From contig JADGAN010000002.1 in NCBI GenBank assembly GCA_015231955.1, forward strand, positions 62,001-126,000: DNA of 64,000 nucleotides, read 5' to 3'. Origin of the DNA: Oligoflexia bacterium. GTDB taxonomy: Bacteria > Bdellovibrionota > Bacteriovoracia > Bacteriovoracales > Bacteriovoracaceae. Below, in pieces: positions 6,232-53,990 of the stretch. The notes under the pieces are model-generated. The model worked only from the letters and a program-made list of their open reading frames with translations, was not told the DNA's origin and did no database searches. How positions within the stretch are numbered: position 1 is the first letter of the stretch; each line of letters begins with the position of its first letter. A program made the translations under genes and the position numbers.

Positions 6232-7146
6232 TTATCTCATTTTGGTCATTAGAAAATCGGTAAATAAGATGATGGTACAAAGAGTGGTGTAAGCGATGAC
6301 AATCAGAGGAAGACGATTTGCCATTTTAGTCGTTGGTCGATACATAAAGCGTACAATGAGCAGCGATACCACTGCGAGAGAACCCATCGAGAGAAAAATG
6401 GTTATTGGGGCCAAGTTTAGGCCAGCACCAAGACGAAAGAGTGAGAAGAGCTGAACAGCAAAGAAAAAGATGATAAAAGCGGCCGCCATGTCTGCTCCCA
6501 AAACACGTGAATAGGTGTGAAAGGGGAGCGCCTCATCGGCAGGTGCACGTATTTTACGAGCAATCTCCCAGGCCCATAGGGGAGCCGCCCACCAAACTGC
6601 CAAGGCAAAATGCTCAGAGGTAAGCAGTGGAACTTTATAAGGTGCCTTTGCCAAGGCGATCAGGTAAAAGTTCCACAGAAGCACTACCGGTGCATGGGTA
6701 AGAAAAGTGTAAATACGATTGTTGGCCATAAAATGAGGAATAAAAAACCATTTTCCCATGGCAAAAGCGAAAAGGAACAGCACTAGAAATGGAAAGAAGG
6801 CCGCTTTTAGCTTTAAGTTTATCAAAAAGAGTAGAACTGAAATTGTTGCAATAAGAGTGTTTAAATTTTTTGTGGTAATTTTGCCCGATGGTAGAGGTTT
6901 CTCAGGAAAAAATCTGCGATCACTCTCGTAGTGTTTGATGTCTTCAAAAAGTCGAATAAAAAGGATGGTAAGCATGATCGTCACTGCGCCAGGAAAAATC
7001 ATAGCAGGAATAATCAACTTTAAAGGGGTGGATAACTCTCCATGCCTTACTTGAAGCATAAGGAAGATTCCTACAGATAGAAAAATAGAATATGCTACTG
7101 CCCTTATCGGGAAAACGGATATCAAATGACCTAAAATCCTCTTCAT
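6232..7146 (-). CDS. UbiA-family prenyltransferase-like membrane protein
   Basis: 304 residues with about eight to nine hydrophobic helices. The first UbiA Asp-rich loop appears as RLFEDIKHYESDRRFFPEKPLPSG, here in two parts (EDIKHYESD and RFFPEKPLPSG), where PLPSG is a hallmark of the superfamily. The second loop region reads REIRAP-like, here ARKIRAPADE, followed by TYSRVLG. UbiA enzymes transfer prenyl chains to aromatic or other acceptors in the inner membrane; the acceptor cannot be named here. The gene is directly upstream of rnhB (two bases) and just downstream of the moa genes (five bases), so it may be the tail of the molybdenum-cofactor transcript. Confidence 0.8.
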   Translation of the reverse strand: MKRILGHLISVFPIRAVAYSIFLSVGIFLMLQVRHGELSTPLKLIIPAMIFPGAVTIMLTILFIRLFEDIKHYESDRRFFPEKPLPSGKITTKNLNTLIATISVLLFLINLKLKAAFFPFLVLFLFAFAMGKWFFIPHFMANNRIYTFLTHAPVVLLWNFYLIALAKAPYKVPLLTSEHFALAVWWAAPLWAWEIARKIRAPADEALPFHTYSRVLGADMAAAFIIFFFAVQLFSLFRLGAGLNLAPITIFLSMGSLAVVSLLIVRFMYRPTTKMANRLPLIVIAYTTLCTIILFTDFLMTKMR

Positions 7147-7151
7147 TGCAC

Positions 7152-7559
7152 CTATACCTCACTCTCGGAAGACTCTTCTTTCCAGATAGGAACTCGCTTC
7201 TTAACCTCATCAATAATATATTGGCAACCAGCAAAGGCCTCCCCTCTATGCTCAGCAGTTGCGACAATCCAAACTGCCATCTCTCCAACAATAAGATCAC
7301 CAATCCGGTGGATGCAAAAGGCATCTAGTAACGGAAATTTACTTTTTGCTTCGTTAATGATCTTTCGCCCTTCTAATTCCGCCATTTCTACATAGCAATG
7401 ATAACGAATACCACGGACAATTTTATTGTCGTTTTTTATCCGTACAATTCCGGCAAAGGTAACCGCACCGCCAGCATGGATCTTGTCAATGAGCTGGAAG
7501 ATTTGAGCTGGAATGTCCTCTATCTTCTCTTTAGAAATACAAAATTGTTTTTCTAACAT
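7152..7559 (-). CDS. moaE: Molybdopterin synthase catalytic subunit MoaE
   Basis: 135 residues from ATG 7559; GGGAGG eight bases upstream lies in the last codons of moaD. With MoaD it adds two sulfurs to precursor Z to give molybdopterin. Family motifs: GAVTFAGIVR (active-site region), HRIGDLIVGEMAVWI, and EHRGEAF...CQYIIDEVKKRVPIWKEE, where the Lys residues of VKKRVPIWK belong to the catalytic pocket. A TTG nine bases earlier in frame would leave no room for a ribosome site. It is the last moa gene in the operon. Confidence 0.95.
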   Translation of the reverse strand: MLEKQFCISKEKIEDIPAQIFQLIDKIHAGGAVTFAGIVRIKNDNKIVRGIRYHCYVEMAELEGRKIINEAKSKFPLLDAFCIHRIGDLIVGEMAVWIVATAEHRGEAFAGCQYIIDEVKKRVPIWKEESSESEV

Positions 7560-7564
7560 CTTTT

Positions 7565-7807
7565 TCAACCTCCCGATACTGGTGGAATAAAAACAACGAT
7601 ATCGCCATCTTTTAGTTGCTTATCCATTGTTTGGTATTCACAATTAATCGCCACTTGTAGCGCCTCTAATCCAAAACTAAAAGTGTAACGACTAGATAAC
7701 TCCTGGTAGAGTTCCTGAGGTGTGCTTGCCGCAGTTTCCAGGATTTCAAAATCTTTACCAGTATCACTACAAAAATTGGCAAAATAGTTAATTTTAATTT
7801 TCATCAT
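7565..7807 (-). CDS. moaD: Molybdopterin synthase sulfur-carrier subunit MoaD
   Basis: 80 residues with a ubiquitin-like fold signature. The C-terminus VVFIPPVSGG ends in the Gly-Gly that is adenylated and thiocarboxylated to carry sulfur to MoaE. Two adjacent ATG codons open the frame; GAGGTGAG overlaps the end of the moaC-mobA gene and serves as ribosome site. The gene order moaD-moaE is the usual one. No moeB/thiF-type activating gene is present in this operon, so the activating enzyme must be encoded elsewhere. Confidence 0.95.
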   Translation of the reverse strand: MMKIKINYFANFCSDTGKDFEILETAASTPQELYQELSSRYTFSFGLEALQVAINCEYQTMDKQLKDGDIVVFIPPVSGG

Positions 7808-48731: not shown

Positions 48732-50132
48732 CTACTCCGGCCGTCCATCCAGGTTCATTGCATTTAAAAGATCTTTCTTCTTTCCCACCTTAAGATTCAC
48801 TAGTTTTGCACTCTGAGTATCTACTCTTCTAAAAAATAGAGTGAAGCGAACAGCGTCGCTCTTTTCTTTTTTCTCCATTTCACTACTACTTCTTGTTGGC
48901 TCAAAGATAAGGCTGCCACCAAATTGCCTCATCATTTCCATGCAAAAGTTCATCGTAAAATCACTACTAGTAGACTCTCCATGCTTAAACGCTATCTCTG
49001 CTTTAGCATTGTCTAAAAATTCAATAATGACAGAGTCACGTACAATCTTACCCATAATCCGAATACGCCGCTCTTGATCCTTCTCTCCAAAAGTTTGAAC
49101 TAGTTCCGACATCAGATGAAAAAAAATCTTCTGAACCACATCCTCTTTTCCCCAGATTAACATATTATCGATGGTATCAATCTTTAAGATAATCCCATTT
49201 ACAAATAGTTTTTTGGAAAAAATATTTACAAGGTTATTGGTGATCTTGTTTAAATCAACACCTTGAAGCGGCGAAGCTGCCTCTGCATTCTCTATAGCTG
49301 CAGGTTCAGACGGGGTATCCTCTTTTGATTCAACTGTACCGCTAACATTGCTAAAATCACTAGCACCTTCGCTGGCCGTGTTCTCTGGCTTTTGCAACGG
49401 CCGTGATCCCCATAGCGCATTTTCTAGCAAAAAGTTGTTATAATGGGAAAAAAGTTTTGAACAATGAATAAGATCATTTTGTTCCAATGTCTTTTTCATA
49501 AGCTCTTCCACTTTTACACAAGAAGGGGAATCTTTTCTCTCCACCTCGTCTAAGGCATCTTGTTCTGACGCTCGATTAAGTTCTCGCAAGCGACGCTGGG
49601 AAAAGGTTAGTATCCAGAAGGCCCCTAGTGCTAATAGCAAAGTAGTTGCTACAAGTCCCATGATGAGGGAATAAAAATCACCACTGCGCTTTTTCCAAAC
49701 ATCAATTTCCTCTAGCAGTGAATCTTTGGCACTTTCTATTTGCGAAAAGAGGGGAACTAAAGTCTCCATATGGCCTTGTTGCTTAATCGATTGGTGAAAT
49801 TGAAACACACTCGAAGAGATCTTATTCATCTTTTCTAGAGCGGCAACCTTTGAAGTAGTATCCTCTAGCTCTTGCTGAACCTCTCCAAAGCACTCTTGGG
49901 TCATTCGTAAAAAATTATCCTGCAAATATTTCGTCGAGGGGCCCATGCTATTCCCATAGGCCATAAAACTCTGCATCACTCTCGAAAAGCAGGTATTGAC
50001 ACCATCTTGAATCAGGTAGTGGCGTCCAAGCGACTTGCTAACAAAATGTAATGACACGAGCAGAATCACCGACAAGAGCAAGGTCAAGGATACAATAAGC
50101 GATATTTTTGTCTTTAGTAGGTTATTCATCAT
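48732..50132 (-). CDS. Membrane histidine-kinase-like protein with degenerate ATPase domain
   Basis: 466 residues. TM1 (about 10-32) and TM2 (about 150-177) enclose a helical periplasmic sensor domain. A 190-260 linker is acidic and Ser/Pro-rich. The C-terminal part (about 290-440) is organised like a HATPase_c domain: VQKIFFHLMSELVQTF at the N-box position, VIIEFLDNAKAEI at G1-box position, and FCMEMMRQFGGSLIFEP at the end. The usual N-box Asn and the DxGxG box are not seen, and there is no phosphoacceptor H-box. It may be a signalling pseudokinase. No response regulator is adjacent. Confidence 0.7.
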   Translation of the reverse strand: MMNNLLKTKISLIVSLTLLLSVILLVSLHFVSKSLGRHYLIQDGVNTCFSRVMQSFMAYGNSMGPSTKYLQDNFLRMTQECFGEVQQELEDTTSKVAALEKMNKISSSVFQFHQSIKQQGHMETLVPLFSQIESAKDSLLEEIDVWKKRSGDFYSLIMGLVATTLLLALGAFWILTFSQRRLRELNRASEQDALDEVERKDSPSCVKVEELMKKTLEQNDLIHCSKLFSHYNNFLLENALWGSRPLQKPENTASEGASDFSNVSGTVESKEDTPSEPAAIENAEAASPLQGVDLNKITNNLVNIFSKKLFVNGIILKIDTIDNMLIWGKEDVVQKIFFHLMSELVQTFGEKDQERRIRIMGKIVRDSVIIEFLDNAKAEIAFKHGESTSSDFTMNFCMEMMRQFGGSLIFEPTRSSSEMEKKEKSDAVRFTLFFRRVDTQSAKLVNLKVGKKKDLLNAMNLDGRPE

Positions 50133-50361: not shown

Positions 50362-51189
50362 ATGTCAAAATACTTGGCGCTCATTTTAGGAACATCACTC
50401 CTTTGGCATCTCTTGATGTTCTCTCTGATTTCCAATTTTGAATCCTATATACAATTTTTTAAAATTAAAACAGATAAGCTTAAGCACTCAACTGCTCCTA
50501 TTGCTATTACCTCGATTCCCAAAGAAGAGCTTTTTAAACTAAAGCAACAAAAACGTATGCACACTGTCGGCAAAGATGATGGCAAAAAGAACATTTTCAC
50601 AATACCGCTCCAAAATAAGGCCACTCCCTTTATCCCGCCCACTAAGCATAAAATTGTGAAATCTAAACCGTCTCAAGAAATTTTTAAAGATAATCAAGCA
50701 ACTAGAACCATCTCCCTTGCTGACTTACAAACACGCTTAAACGAAGCAGAAAAAACCCATCTTTCTCCTTCTACTTCGGCAGTATCTATCCCTCAGCTTC
50801 CTCGAAATTTAAACCTTGATATTCGAGTGGAGGTTCCAGAAGGAGTCGATTTAGACAAGCTCAATGAGATCGAGCTTAAGTTTTACGGTTTCAACTTGCG
50901 AGTTTTTCGCTCTTACGTTTCTGCCATTTACCATGCGTACGAAGATTTTAAACTTGCCAGTCCTCACGTTAATTTTGCCCAAATGAGTAGGCAATCGCTG
51001 CTTGCATCGGTCACTTATAATGTAAATGGTGGGATTGAACATATTAGCTTTATCCGTTCTGCAAGTGATGACCGCTTGCAGGCCATGTTCCAGCGAGCAT
51101 TAGAGAACAACAGTGTCCAAAATCCTCCGAAGGAGATTGTCGAAAACGGCCGTTTTCAACTACGCTACGAACTCGTAGTAAATCCGTAA
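50362..51189 (+). CDS. TonB-like energy-transducing protein
   Basis: 275 residues. A single N-terminal membrane anchor (about 5-27, after MSKYLALILGTSLLWH) is followed by a Lys/Pro-containing periplasmic linker (about 35-130). The C-terminal domain (about 180-275) fits a TonB-type fold: VTYNVNGGIEHISFIRSASDD, FQRALENNSVQNPP and FQLRYELVV at the end. TonB couples the proton motive force to outer-membrane transporters. No exbB/exbD genes are nearby. TolA is an alternative, though the long helical domain of TolA is missing. Confidence 0.75.
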   Translation: MSKYLALILGTSLLWHLLMFSLISNFESYIQFFKIKTDKLKHSTAPIAITSIPKEELFKLKQQKRMHTVGKDDGKKNIFTIPLQNKATPFIPPTKHKIVKSKPSQEIFKDNQATRTISLADLQTRLNEAEKTHLSPSTSAVSIPQLPRNLNLDIRVEVPEGVDLDKLNEIELKFYGFNLRVFRSYVSAIYHAYEDFKLASPHVNFAQMSRQSLLASVTYNVNGGIEHISFIRSASDDRLQAMFQRALENNSVQNPPKEIVENGRFQLRYELVVNP

Positions 51190-51218: not shown

Positions 51219-51617
51219 CTAAAATTTGCTTAAACTCTTAATTTTTCCCCATGCTTTTGAAAATAAAGAATCGCCATCTATTTTGGATTTCTCAATCTCT
51301 TTAAAAAGCATCCTCAATAAATCACTGACTTCCCTTGTGATCTCTTCAAGCCCAACACTGCTAATTTTTTTTGCTATAATAGAACTATCAACTAATTCTA
51401 ATGATCGTTTGTAGCTTGCATGTTTTTGTTTGCACGCAGGGCAGACCTCCACATGTTTTTTCATATATTCAAAAATTTTTCCATGCAAATGACCATCTAA
51501 GTAGGGCAAGATTTTTTTTGAAAAGAAACAAAATGTTAACTGGGTTTCTCCATCGTTATTATCAAGAATCCTTCCTGTTTTCCTTGAATCTATCATCAAT
51601 TTATTTTCCATATACAA
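51219..51617 (-). CDS. Zinc-binding anti-sigma factor-like protein
   Basis: 132 residues from TTG 51617, with GAGGGAG about ten bases upstream; ATG 51611 is the alternative. The segment ILPYLDGHLHGKIFEYMKKHVEVCPAC carries the His-x3-Cys-x2-Cys pattern of zinc-binding anti-sigma (ZAS) domains. No transmembrane helix follows, so it would be a soluble anti-sigma. The rest is helical (KKISSVGLEEITREVSDLL). It lies 90 bases downstream of the divergent sigma-factor gene, the normal arrangement for a cognate pair. Confidence 0.7.
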   Translation of the reverse strand: MYMENKLMIDSRKTGRILDNNDGETQLTFCFFSKKILPYLDGHLHGKIFEYMKKHVEVCPACKQKHASYKRSLELVDSSIIAKKISSVGLEEITREVSDLLRMLFKEIEKSKIDGDSLFSKAWGKIKSLSKF

Positions 51618-51707
51618 CGAGAGCTTACTCCCTCATAGAATAAACCCTAATACACTCCTTTCCTCTTAAATCAAAGAGGGATCTTTGGTTTATAAAAAAA
51701 TGTTTTA

Positions 51708-52223
51708 TCAAACTAATTGCTCCGAAGCCAGCTTTGGATTTTCCTGTTCCATGAACTTAAGTAACTTATTTCTGGCCAAATTCAGTTTTAAACAAAATGA
51801 TTCCTCATCTAAGTCTAAAATGGTGGCCAAATTATCTATTGGCAAGATTCTCTCTTTATGTAAGTGCAAAATAGCTCTTTCTTCAGTGGTTAATCTTAGC
51901 ACTCTGGTTTTACCACTAAGATCCTCTCCCAATGTCTTTTTAATACCATCTTCTAATTGATAAAACCGCTTGCTTGCAACTTTATAAACATATTTATAGA
52001 GCCTTACCCGCAGCTTTTGCATTCGTTCTTTGCGACTATAATCATCGTTATTTTTCATAAGCAGGATGTTGTTAATAAGAGATTTTTCTTGAACTGTAGC
52101 GACCATACAAGCATCAATTACAACTTGTTCTGCTTGTAGATCGTCGGGAATTATCGCAAAGGCAAAACTATATAATTCTGGAACAAAGCTTATAAAATAT
52201 TTTTCAAACTCTTTTCTATTCAC
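51708..52223 (-). CDS. Divergent ECF sigma factor-like protein
   Basis: 171 residues, the size of an ECF sigma factor. The N-terminal part (about 8-50: PELYSFAFAIIPDDLQAEQVV) fits a weak region 2 and the C-terminal 50 residues fit region 4: LTTEERAILHLHKERILPID, then LATILDLDEESFCLKLNLARNKLLKFM with the helix-turn-helix. The usual region-2.4 promoter-recognition residues are hard to align, so specificity cannot be guessed. It is followed by a ZAS-type anti-sigma gene and preceded by a metallopeptidase lipoprotein gene, all leftward. Confidence 0.65.
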   Translation of the reverse strand: MNRKEFEKYFISFVPELYSFAFAIIPDDLQAEQVVIDACMVATVQEKSLINNILLMKNNDDYSRKERMQKLRVRLYKYVYKVASKRFYQLEDGIKKTLGEDLSGKTRVLRLTTEERAILHLHKERILPIDNLATILDLDEESFCLKLNLARNKLLKFMEQENPKLASEQLV

Positions 52224-52270
52224 ATTTTACACTTTATCAGCAAACCACATCGGTTTCAAGTGGGAAGATC

Positions 52271-53392
52271 TCATCTATCATGAATTGCACTGAAGAAAAA
52301 ACCAGCAAACCCTTGCTCTCTTTTATCACTAGGCAATTTTTTATACATTCCATATTGAGTTTCAATATATGACAAAAACTCTTTGATTGGAAGATGCAAC
52401 TTTTCTCGTATTTTTCCAAAATCGTCAACACTCTCTTCATAAGTAAGAAAGAGAGTCATCGAGGCATTATTCCAAGTTCTCTCCAGAAAGGAACACTTTC
52501 CATTGCGTTCTAACTTTAAAATTTTACACTCCTTTGCAAGTGTTGGAAAAAAACGCTCCTGTAAAAACTGATTTAACATTTGCTGACCACTCACTTTATC
52601 AGCAGGTTTCTCTTTTTGATAGCGCAGCGATAATTCCTTAATCAAAGCAACTGCTAGGTTATTTAATTTTTGCCGATTAGAACGAAAGCTTTTAATCTCT
52701 TTTTTCTTTTCTTCTGTATAGTGAAAATACTCAAAGGCCATCTCTTCTCCCATATAGTTGGCCAAGTTTTCACTAAATCCGACCTCTCCTTTAATAAAAA
52801 AGATGGTATGAAAAAGTTCATGAAAAACCAATTCTGCTAAACTTTCATTACTAAAATTAAAAAACGAAGAGAGAATCGTATCTTCAAAATACCCGAGTGT
52901 GGAGTAAGCATAAATAGGACGCTTCAAAGTCACATAACCCTCTTGTTCTAAGCTTTGAACATACTCTTCCGCAGCCTTATGGTTAAAAAAGCCTAAATAA
53001 GGAAAACACCCAACAAACCAAAAGCAGTGCTCTTTAGCTTTAATTTCATTAAAACGAGAGGCCACCACCATGTGGCTGACTTCTGAGTGCTCTAAAATTG
53101 TAGTTTTAGAGTAAATCCCTGAAGCTCTTTTTTGAAAATAGTCATAAAAATATTTTTTATATTGAATAATCTCTTGGATCTTCCTTTTATCCTCTTTTGA
53201 AATGCGCGGATCTTGCAAGGCCTTTTCATTGGTAACAGCACTGTTTTGAATTTTTAATTGACCACTTCCTTGATCTACAATGTAGCGAAAAGAAGCACAG
53301 GAGAAGAGAAACAAGAAAAACAGGAGAAAAAGAATAAGCAGCAAAAAAAGCAAACTAACTCTATGGTAATACCCACGAAATCCCTGCTTCAT
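52271..53392 (-). CDS. Aminopeptidase-like lipoprotein (HExxH, PF10023 type)
   Basis: 373 residues from ATG 53392, overlapping the upstream gene by 32 bases; a ribosome site is not obvious, so the start is tentative. A hydrophobic signal ends in the lipobox LFSCAS. The protein follows the predicted-aminopeptidase family: a WFVGCFPYLGFF block, AYSTLGYFEDTILSSFF, the zinc motif FHELFHTIFF (HELFH) and the downstream ENLANYMGEEMAFEYF helix. It would act as an envelope-anchored metalloprotease. The neighbouring sigma/anti-sigma genes suggest a stress or envelope-signalling role, perhaps as target or regulator. Confidence 0.85.
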   Translation of the reverse strand: MKQGFRGYYHRVSLLFLLLILFLLFFLFLFSCASFRYIVDQGSGQLKIQNSAVTNEKALQDPRISKEDKRKIQEIIQYKKYFYDYFQKRASGIYSKTTILEHSEVSHMVVASRFNEIKAKEHCFWFVGCFPYLGFFNHKAAEEYVQSLEQEGYVTLKRPIYAYSTLGYFEDTILSSFFNFSNESLAELVFHELFHTIFFIKGEVGFSENLANYMGEEMAFEYFHYTEEKKKEIKSFRSNRQKLNNLAVALIKELSLRYQKEKPADKVSGQQMLNQFLQERFFPTLAKECKILKLERNGKCSFLERTWNNASMTLFLTYEESVDDFGKIREKLHLPIKEFLSYIETQYGMYKKLPSDKREQGFAGFFFSAIHDR

Positions 53393-53990
53393 ATTCAAGA
53401 TTATTTTTAATATCGTTGTAATCATTGGCACTAAAAACCGTTTTTACAGATCCAGTTATTGCGATTAACTTAGTTATATTGATCTTTAACATAAAGGTGC
53501 CAAACATGGCATTGCTTTGTTCTCGAGGATTATTCACTTTATAAAGAATCCTCTCCCCTACTGCCTCAAAAGTATAGTCAGTTATACTGCTTTTGATTTG
53601 CCGGGCATACCCAGCGCTCACAACTGGAGTGATCATGGCCTTTCTACTCGCAAGCATCTGCCGCAGACCCGCCCCATAAGTTTTAGTCTTCACACGATTT
53701 TGAATGCTCACTATATAAAGGCCTGGCTCAATTAAGACTCGCTCATTTTGAGTTAAGATCTCATCATTATGACTATAGTTAAACTCAATCCCTGTGGTGC
53801 TAAAAAAATAGATGGCCATGCTTCCAGAGTAAGTTCTCGAGGTAAGACTACTCTCTTTGTTGGATCCATAGACGTGTTTACTGTACTTAAACCCTCCATT
53901 AAGCTCGGCCATAGAGAACGCATTGCCAATGCAAAGAAGCGTAAGCAAGAGGGGCAATAGAACAATCAGATGCTTTCTAAAAGTAACCAT
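53361..53990 (-). CDS. Outer-membrane beta-barrel-like protein
   Basis: 209 residues. A signal peptide ends near GNAFSM. The mature chain alternates hydrophobic and polar residues in strands such as GSMAIYFFSTTGIEFNYSH and ITPVVSAGYARQI, and ends in EAGISWVLP, where a near-terminal aromatic residue fits a barrel. About eight strands are expected. Its 3' end overlaps the metallopeptidase gene by 32 bases. Function unknown; it may be the first gene of the operon leading to the sigma/anti-sigma pair. Confidence 0.72.
   Translation of the reverse strand: MVTFRKHLIVLLPLLLTLLCIGNAFSMAELNGGFKYSKHVYGSNKESSLTSRTYSGSMAIYFFSTTGIEFNYSHNDEILTQNERVLIEPGLYIVSIQNRVKTKTYGAGLRQMLASRKAMITPVVSAGYARQIKSSITDYTFEAVGERILYKVNNPREQSNAMFGTFMLKINITKLIAITGSVKTVFSANDYNDIKNNLEYEAGISWVLP

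Follow-up and report, generated by a model that had tools for sequence, protein, structure and literature searches.

A sigma-fold protein that has lost residues of working sigma factors, and its anti-sigma-like partner, in Bacteriovoracaceae

We analysed a stretch of 64,000 nucleotides (hereafter the window) from an Oligoflexia bacterium of the family Bacteriovoracaceae (assembly GCA_015231955.1, contig JADGAN010000002.1, positions 62,001 to 126,000), with a focus on two adjacent genes coding for a sigma-like and an anti-sigma-like protein. An earlier note on this DNA had grouped this pair with a barrel protein and a metallopeptidase lipoprotein carrying an HELFH motif, next to a convergent TonB-like gene, and had likened the whole to cell-surface signalling systems that place a sigma factor under the control of an envelope component. 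All the genes lie at the coordinates and on the strands given in that note, the convergent TonB-like gene included (Table 1), and the HELFH lipoprotein is a clear member of a Pfam aminopeptidase family. The gene of the barrel-like protein (209 aa) is likewise present, but the label derives from a signal peptide and a conserved position only, no family being matched in profile searches.

Table 1. The sigma-like/anti-sigma-like pair and surrounding features (positions in the window)
Feature	Position	Strand	Remarks
Sigma-fold (extracytoplasmic function (ECF)-like) protein, 171 aa, sigma2 + sigma4, GTG start	51708-52223	-	
Family motif PDDLQAxQLVID of the sigma-like protein (residues 26-37)	52113-52148	-	where ordinary ECFs have D-x-x-Q-E
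Soluble class-I anti-sigma-like protein (zinc-binding anti-sigma, ZAS), 132 aa	51219-51617, likely ATG 51611	-	
Gap between peptidase and sigma-like genes, 47 bp	52224-52270	-	holds a sigma-70-like element
HELFH (HExxH) aminopeptidase lipoprotein	52271-53392, likely ATG 53392	-	Pfam PF10023 Aminopep, 1.9e-53
Barrel-like secreted protein, family unmatched	53990-53361	-	overlaps the peptidase gene; keeps its position before the peptidase in relatives
TonB-like protein, convergent	50362-51189	+	TonB_2 C-terminal domain, weak
Two-transmembrane pseudo-histidine kinase	48732-50132	-	catalytic and ATP-binding (CA) fold without H-box or G-boxes

Fold, partner and lost residues of the sigma-like protein

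Taken as a single sequence, the sigma-like protein has no Pfam match, the curated cut-offs of Sigma70_r2 and Sigma70_r4_2 not being reached; it is also missing among the Sigma70_r2 matches of its own genome, and its score against the NCBIfam ECF model (9.3e-6) lies below cut-off. Single-sequence profile support is equally weak for the anti-sigma-like protein (NCBIfam RsrA model, 4e-4, below cut-off) and for the TonB-like protein (TonB_2, 0.065). However, the sigma-like match becomes firm once alignments of relatives and structure are used, and alignments strengthen that of the anti-sigma-like protein, which supports the assignments of the earlier note at the level of fold and pairing. The sigma-like profile aligns with that of 10 ordinary ECFs with an hhalign probability of 93.7 (E 1.9e-7) and matches region 4 of SigW in PDB (1.3e-4). 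In the AlphaFold model (pLDDT 89.7) the protein adopts a two-domain sigma2 + sigma4 fold, ECF-type over its whole length, that is closest to SigW in the SigW-RsiW complex (Z 15.3 over 140 residues, root-mean-square deviation 3.8), followed by RpoE-NepR (Z 14.1), CnrH-CnrY (Z 13.4) and PhyR (Z 13.2). The top fold matches are therefore sigma/anti-sigma complexes and PhyR. The protein consists of sigma2 and sigma4 only, with no Pfam REC match and without a receiver domain.

The partner encoded in the window looks like an anti-sigma of class I (ZAS): it carries the motif C30...H55xxxC59xxC62 and has no transmembrane segment, in agreement with its earlier description as a soluble ZAS protein. The best PDB profile match of the family alignment is RsiW (0.006), and zf-HC2 is matched by 10/31 members (best 4.7e-4). 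The HxxxCxxC zinc motif is kept in 36 of 63 members, including that of the window, and 35 of these 36 also have an upstream cysteine at the position of the first ligand of RsrA. The zinc site is lost in the remaining 27, which rules out a zinc/redox switch as a general mechanism. A C-terminal transmembrane segment occurs in about 18 members, all zinc-type, so that relatives of the soluble window protein are at most tail-anchored. Such mixtures of zinc and non-zinc, soluble and membrane forms are known within groups of class-I anti-sigma domains (PMC7406223).

Sequence positions of functional importance were compared between 64 members of the sigma-like family and 17 ordinary ECFs from genomes of the same family, in an alignment register confirmed by a profile-profile check (hhalign). 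We found that the sigma-like family has consistently lost the residues that contact core RNA polymerase and the -10 and -35 elements, whereas the core-binding, -10 and basic -35-helix residues are all retained by the 17 ordinary ECFs. In region 2.2, the core-binding motif D-x-x-Q-E reads Q-x-x-I-D in the window protein (D to Q33, Q to I36, E to D37); position 33 is acidic in 100% of the ordinary ECFs and Q in 92% of the relatives, while position 36 changes from Q/H/S to I/V/L in nearly all of them. In region 2.4, where W, N, D and R serve as -10 residues, the tryptophan (W78) is lost, N85 is replaced by K/R and D/E89 by Q. Finally, position 144 of the recognition helix, K/R in 94% of the controls, is I/L in the sigma-like relatives, R149 is N/S, and the net charge of the helix is +0.9 against +4.1. 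The family has near-invariant residues of its own (P26-D28, L29, Q30, A31, Q33, D37, R86 and Q89), which indicates that the protein is under constraint and not decaying. Class-I anti-sigmas bind the RNA-polymerase-binding region 2.1/2.2 and the DNA-binding region 4 of their sigma factors (PMC7406223), and these are exactly the surfaces altered here. As judged from these alignments, what is new here is that a protein which has retained its anti-sigma has lost sigma-function residues throughout the family.

Occurrence, gene order and co-variation

Of 129 genomes from the same family, 114 have a match to the sigma-like profile, a strong one in about 100 cases; the named relatives are Bacteriovorax, Halobacteriovorax marinus and Bacteriovoracaceae metagenome-assembled genomes. 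Across a sample of 241 genomes from the phylum, strong full-length matches were obtained inside the family only, and the few weak matches outside it are mostly restricted to region 4, as other ECFs would give. The pair is therefore nearly universal in one Bacteriovorax-like predator family, and the full-length protein is found nowhere else in the phylum sample. Related predators of the genus Bdellovibrio do have group IV sigma-like proteins, the RpoE-like Bd0881 and Bd0743, but according to the published account no anti-sigma gene lies downstream of these (PMC3464611). We found no description of the present pair in the part of the literature on Bacteriovorax sigma and anti-sigma factors that was consulted.

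Gene order was counted in 68 non-redundant loci. The usual arrangement is miaB, barrel, aminopeptidase, glutathione synthetase, a divergent lipoprotein, sigma-like and anti-sigma genes, followed by the convergent TonB-like gene and the kinase-like gene, beyond which dtd and a ChaN-like gene are often found. The anti-sigma gene directly follows the sigma-like gene in 63/68 loci, often with an overlap of 4 bp, and this conservation, together with that across the family's genomes, excludes chance. The TonB-like gene comes next in 64 loci and is divergent from the kinase-like gene in 61. The divergent lipoprotein, which is unrelated to the HELFH lipoprotein and is usually encoded after the glutathione-synthetase gene, precedes the sigma-like gene in 61/68 loci and thus separates the barrel and HELFH genes from the pair; the window and its sister genus are alone in having the aminopeptidase gene immediately upstream. 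Hence the proposed conserved cluster holds for the order of sigma and anti-sigma genes but not for the barrel and the peptidase, which we reject as a general rule as parts of a sigma operon. The arrangement is kept across 40-odd genera at 20-30% protein identity. However, synteny extends over the entire block as far as rsmD and coaD, so that gene order alone is weak evidence of shared function.

A few loci depart from this arrangement. In two of them (L172 and L174, genomes G022 and G089), a highly diverged sigma-like gene coding for 200 aa stands without an anti-sigma gene, and the TonB-like/kinase pair is located elsewhere. In L040 (G015), the sigma-like open reading frame (6889-7653) codes for 254 aa with a C-terminal extension and is followed by no separate anti-sigma gene, possibly representing a fusion. 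In the window genome, the orthologue of the divergent lipoprotein lies on another contig (G000:C19:28468-29286; L105, L179), where it is preceded by a CCGATA box with a weak -35. The window genome lacks the glutathione synthetase gene (gshB), and a glutathione link through this neighbour is therefore not required.

Co-variation of protein distances was assessed by mirror-tree comparison of 43 loci, after removal of the background given by miaB, aminopeptidase and glutathione synthetase (partial r). The distances of sigma-like and anti-sigma proteins co-vary with a partial r of 0.43, those of anti-sigma and kinase with 0.40, and those of sigma-like protein and kinase with 0.29; the values for the sigma-like protein with the lipoprotein (-0.05) and the TonB-like protein (-0.13) are slightly negative. 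These data give modest support for a physical sigma-like/anti-sigma pair, and none for the idea that the lipoprotein or the TonB-like protein controls the sigma-like protein. The TonB-like gene mentioned in the earlier note is a constant convergent neighbour, but its co-variation with the sigma-like protein does not rise above background.

Proposed mimicry and its rivals

We tentatively propose, with a likelihood that we place just short of even, that the sigma-like protein is a PhyR-like sigma mimic without receiver domain, paired with its anti-sigma, and we favour this over a close rival, a working but divergent ECF. This preference comes from the loss of sigma residues in a protein whose anti-sigma partner is kept, together with the precedent of PhyR, which titrates an anti-sigma by means of an ECF-folded domain whose core and promoter regions are degenerate (PMC8103513); the likeness to PhyR rests on this review and on the fold matches. 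The sigma-like protein would no longer direct transcription, and would bind the anti-sigma through the same two surfaces as a true sigma, acting as an anti-anti-sigma. The anti-sigma would be shared between this mimic and a true sigma encoded elsewhere, and the state of the envelope, possibly sensed by the pseudokinase with its periplasmic cysteine pair, would shift its partition between the two. The barrel and peptidase genes are syntenic neighbours outside the proposed switch. As for the idea of a sigma factor controlled from the envelope, it is unproven, since the sigma-like protein lacks the residues of a working sigma. The PhyR/NepR system of the alphaproteobacterial general stress response shares with the present locus an ECF fold with degenerate regions, a small anti-sigma partner and a histidine-kinase-like gene nearby; unlike it, the present pair has no receiver domain and a partner of class I (ZAS) instead of NepR, and the locus encodes a pseudokinase and no ecfG-like sigma. 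Sigma mimicry is known essentially from PhyR, and if the proposal is true, it would have evolved again, without phosphorylation, in predators whose switch between attack and growth is not understood in regulatory terms, and it would warn against trusting automatic 'ECF sigma' labels. A more ambitious version, in which a receiver-less decoy, a class-I anti-sigma and a transmembrane pseudokinase would form an envelope-controlled switch tied to the attack phase, as a second independent lineage of sigma mimics outside the PhyR clade, appears to us unlikely as a whole.

Several observations weigh against mimicry. PhyR carries a receiver domain and partners with NepR, and the sigma-like protein has neither, leaving no known gate; the two genes are arranged as is usual for a working ECF and its inhibitor; and no true sigma is present in the locus. 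The obvious candidate, FliA, comes with its own FlgM in 13/13 genomes tested, which also weakens the idea that FliA lacks an inhibitor and that the anti-sigma-like protein fills this role. A Pfam region-4 model was used to pick the 17 control ECFs, a choice that favours a canonical sigma4, though not sigma2, and the recognition helix of the sigma-like protein still has R151 and a slight positive charge. The co-variation of the pair (0.43) is only in modest excess of the 0.24-0.35 reached by housekeeping-neighbour controls. Moreover, one locus (L170, G003:C40) has a natural deletion of the pair only, with lipoprotein, TonB-like and kinase genes still side by side. A working ECF with its own promoter specificity, held by a soluble or tail-anchored class-I anti-sigma and freed by an envelope or redox signal, is a plausible, if somewhat less probable, alternative. 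It would account for the ECF fold across the whole protein, for the order of sigma and anti-sigma genes with their frequent 4-bp overlap as in ordinary ECF operons, for the RsrA-like first cysteine ligand of nearly all zinc-type anti-sigma members and for the long purifying selection on the sigma-like protein. The SigW-RsiW, SigR-RsrA and RpoE-ChrR systems resemble the pair in fold, gene order, HxxxCxxC motif and mixture of zinc/non-zinc and soluble/membrane forms within a group (PMC7406223), but the present sigma-like protein lacks the D-x-x-Q-E motif, the W and N of region 2.4, a basic recognition helix and a recognisable promoter of its own. What speaks against a working ECF is precisely that the core-binding, -10 and -35 residues are gone in nearly all members, and that alignments revealed no conserved ECF-type promoter upstream of the pair, the lipoprotein, the TonB-like or the kinase genes, but only sigma-70-like and sigma-28-like elements.

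The remaining explanations concern the neighbours. That the pair merely happens to sit in a long conserved block (miaB ... rsmD, coaD), with no function shared between neighbours, we hold to be improbable: the entire block is indeed syntenic, G003 has lost the pair alone, and in G022 and G089 the sigma-like gene lies apart from the TonB-like/kinase genes, but the order has been held over many genera of low protein identity and the kinase co-varies with the anti-sigma, and in any case this explanation does not touch the pair itself. Regulated proteolysis, in which the HELFH lipoprotein would degrade the anti-sigma as in RseA/DegS/RseP, has very little to recommend it beyond the fact that, in the window, the gene immediately upstream codes for a protein with the HExxH signature of metallopeptidases, because the peptidase is a predicted periplasmic lipoprotein and the window anti-sigma is cytoplasmic and soluble, and because the peptidase gene stands apart from the pair in 61/68 loci and is retained where the pair is lost (G003). 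Least credible of all is FecIRA-like cell-surface signalling, with the barrel as receptor, the TonB-like protein as energy source and the anti-sigma as relay. Although barrel-like, TonB-like, sigma-like and anti-sigma-like genes do lie within 4 kb, we reject it on architecture: none of the eight window proteins tested against Pfam has a TonB-dependent receptor or FecR-type domain, which fits the remark in the earlier note that the components differ from the FecIRA type. The barrel-like protein is far too small for a 22-strand receptor and is not adjacent to the pair in most relatives, and the anti-sigma, soluble or at most tail-anchored, lacks a FecR-like periplasmic domain.

Neighbouring genes and their promoters

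The kinase-like protein spans the membrane with two helices and combines a helical domain in the periplasm, in which C48 and C81 are invariant, with the CA fold of histidine kinases. Among 65 members, the H-box and the GxGLGL motif are found in none, DxGxG in 1 and the N-box in 4. The fold being clear and the H-box and G-boxes missing, the product is a pseudokinase. Its C-terminus, in the window and in relatives, ends in a conserved KGxKKDL-like tail in which G450 and K452 are invariant.

The divergent lipoprotein of relatives is about 250 aa long and has invariant cysteines. Its promoter matches the consensus of the Bdellovibrio attack-phase FliA regulon, TTAAG-N16-CCGATA (PMC3627812), at 9/11 positions or more in 38/61 loci (3.2 expected) and at 10/11 or more in 21/61 (0.25 expected), counts to be taken as a footprint and not as independent trials, the loci being related. 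Scores are at background on the opposite strand and in the TonB-like/kinase region. The divergent lipoprotein gene is thus predicted to be an attack-phase (FliA) gene in most relatives; the match belongs to this neighbour and not to the pair, and dependence on FliA is a prediction only. Upstream of 20 flagellin genes, about 7 have a recognisable near-start site for the sigma-28 consensus and the others score like shuffles, so that the case for FliA depends chiefly on the consensus published for Bdellovibrio. Among the pairs tested, the TonB-like protein and this lipoprotein show the highest residual co-variation (0.47), hinting at an envelope complex.

In the window, a sigma-70-like element (TTGAAA-17-TAAAGT, 52259-52231) ends 7 nucleotides before the start of the sigma-like gene, and taken alone is no better than chance. 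Many relatives (e.g. L033, L056, L060-L065) also have such an element about 8 nucleotides before the sigma-like start codon. From this position of the -10 box, the sigma-like mRNA is probably leaderless in relatives. The intergenic region between TonB-like and kinase genes of relatives contains a strong conserved sigma-70-like promoter for the kinase gene (CTTGACTC ... GACAAT or TAGAAT); a conserved ATTTTT-type block just before it is a possible regulator site.

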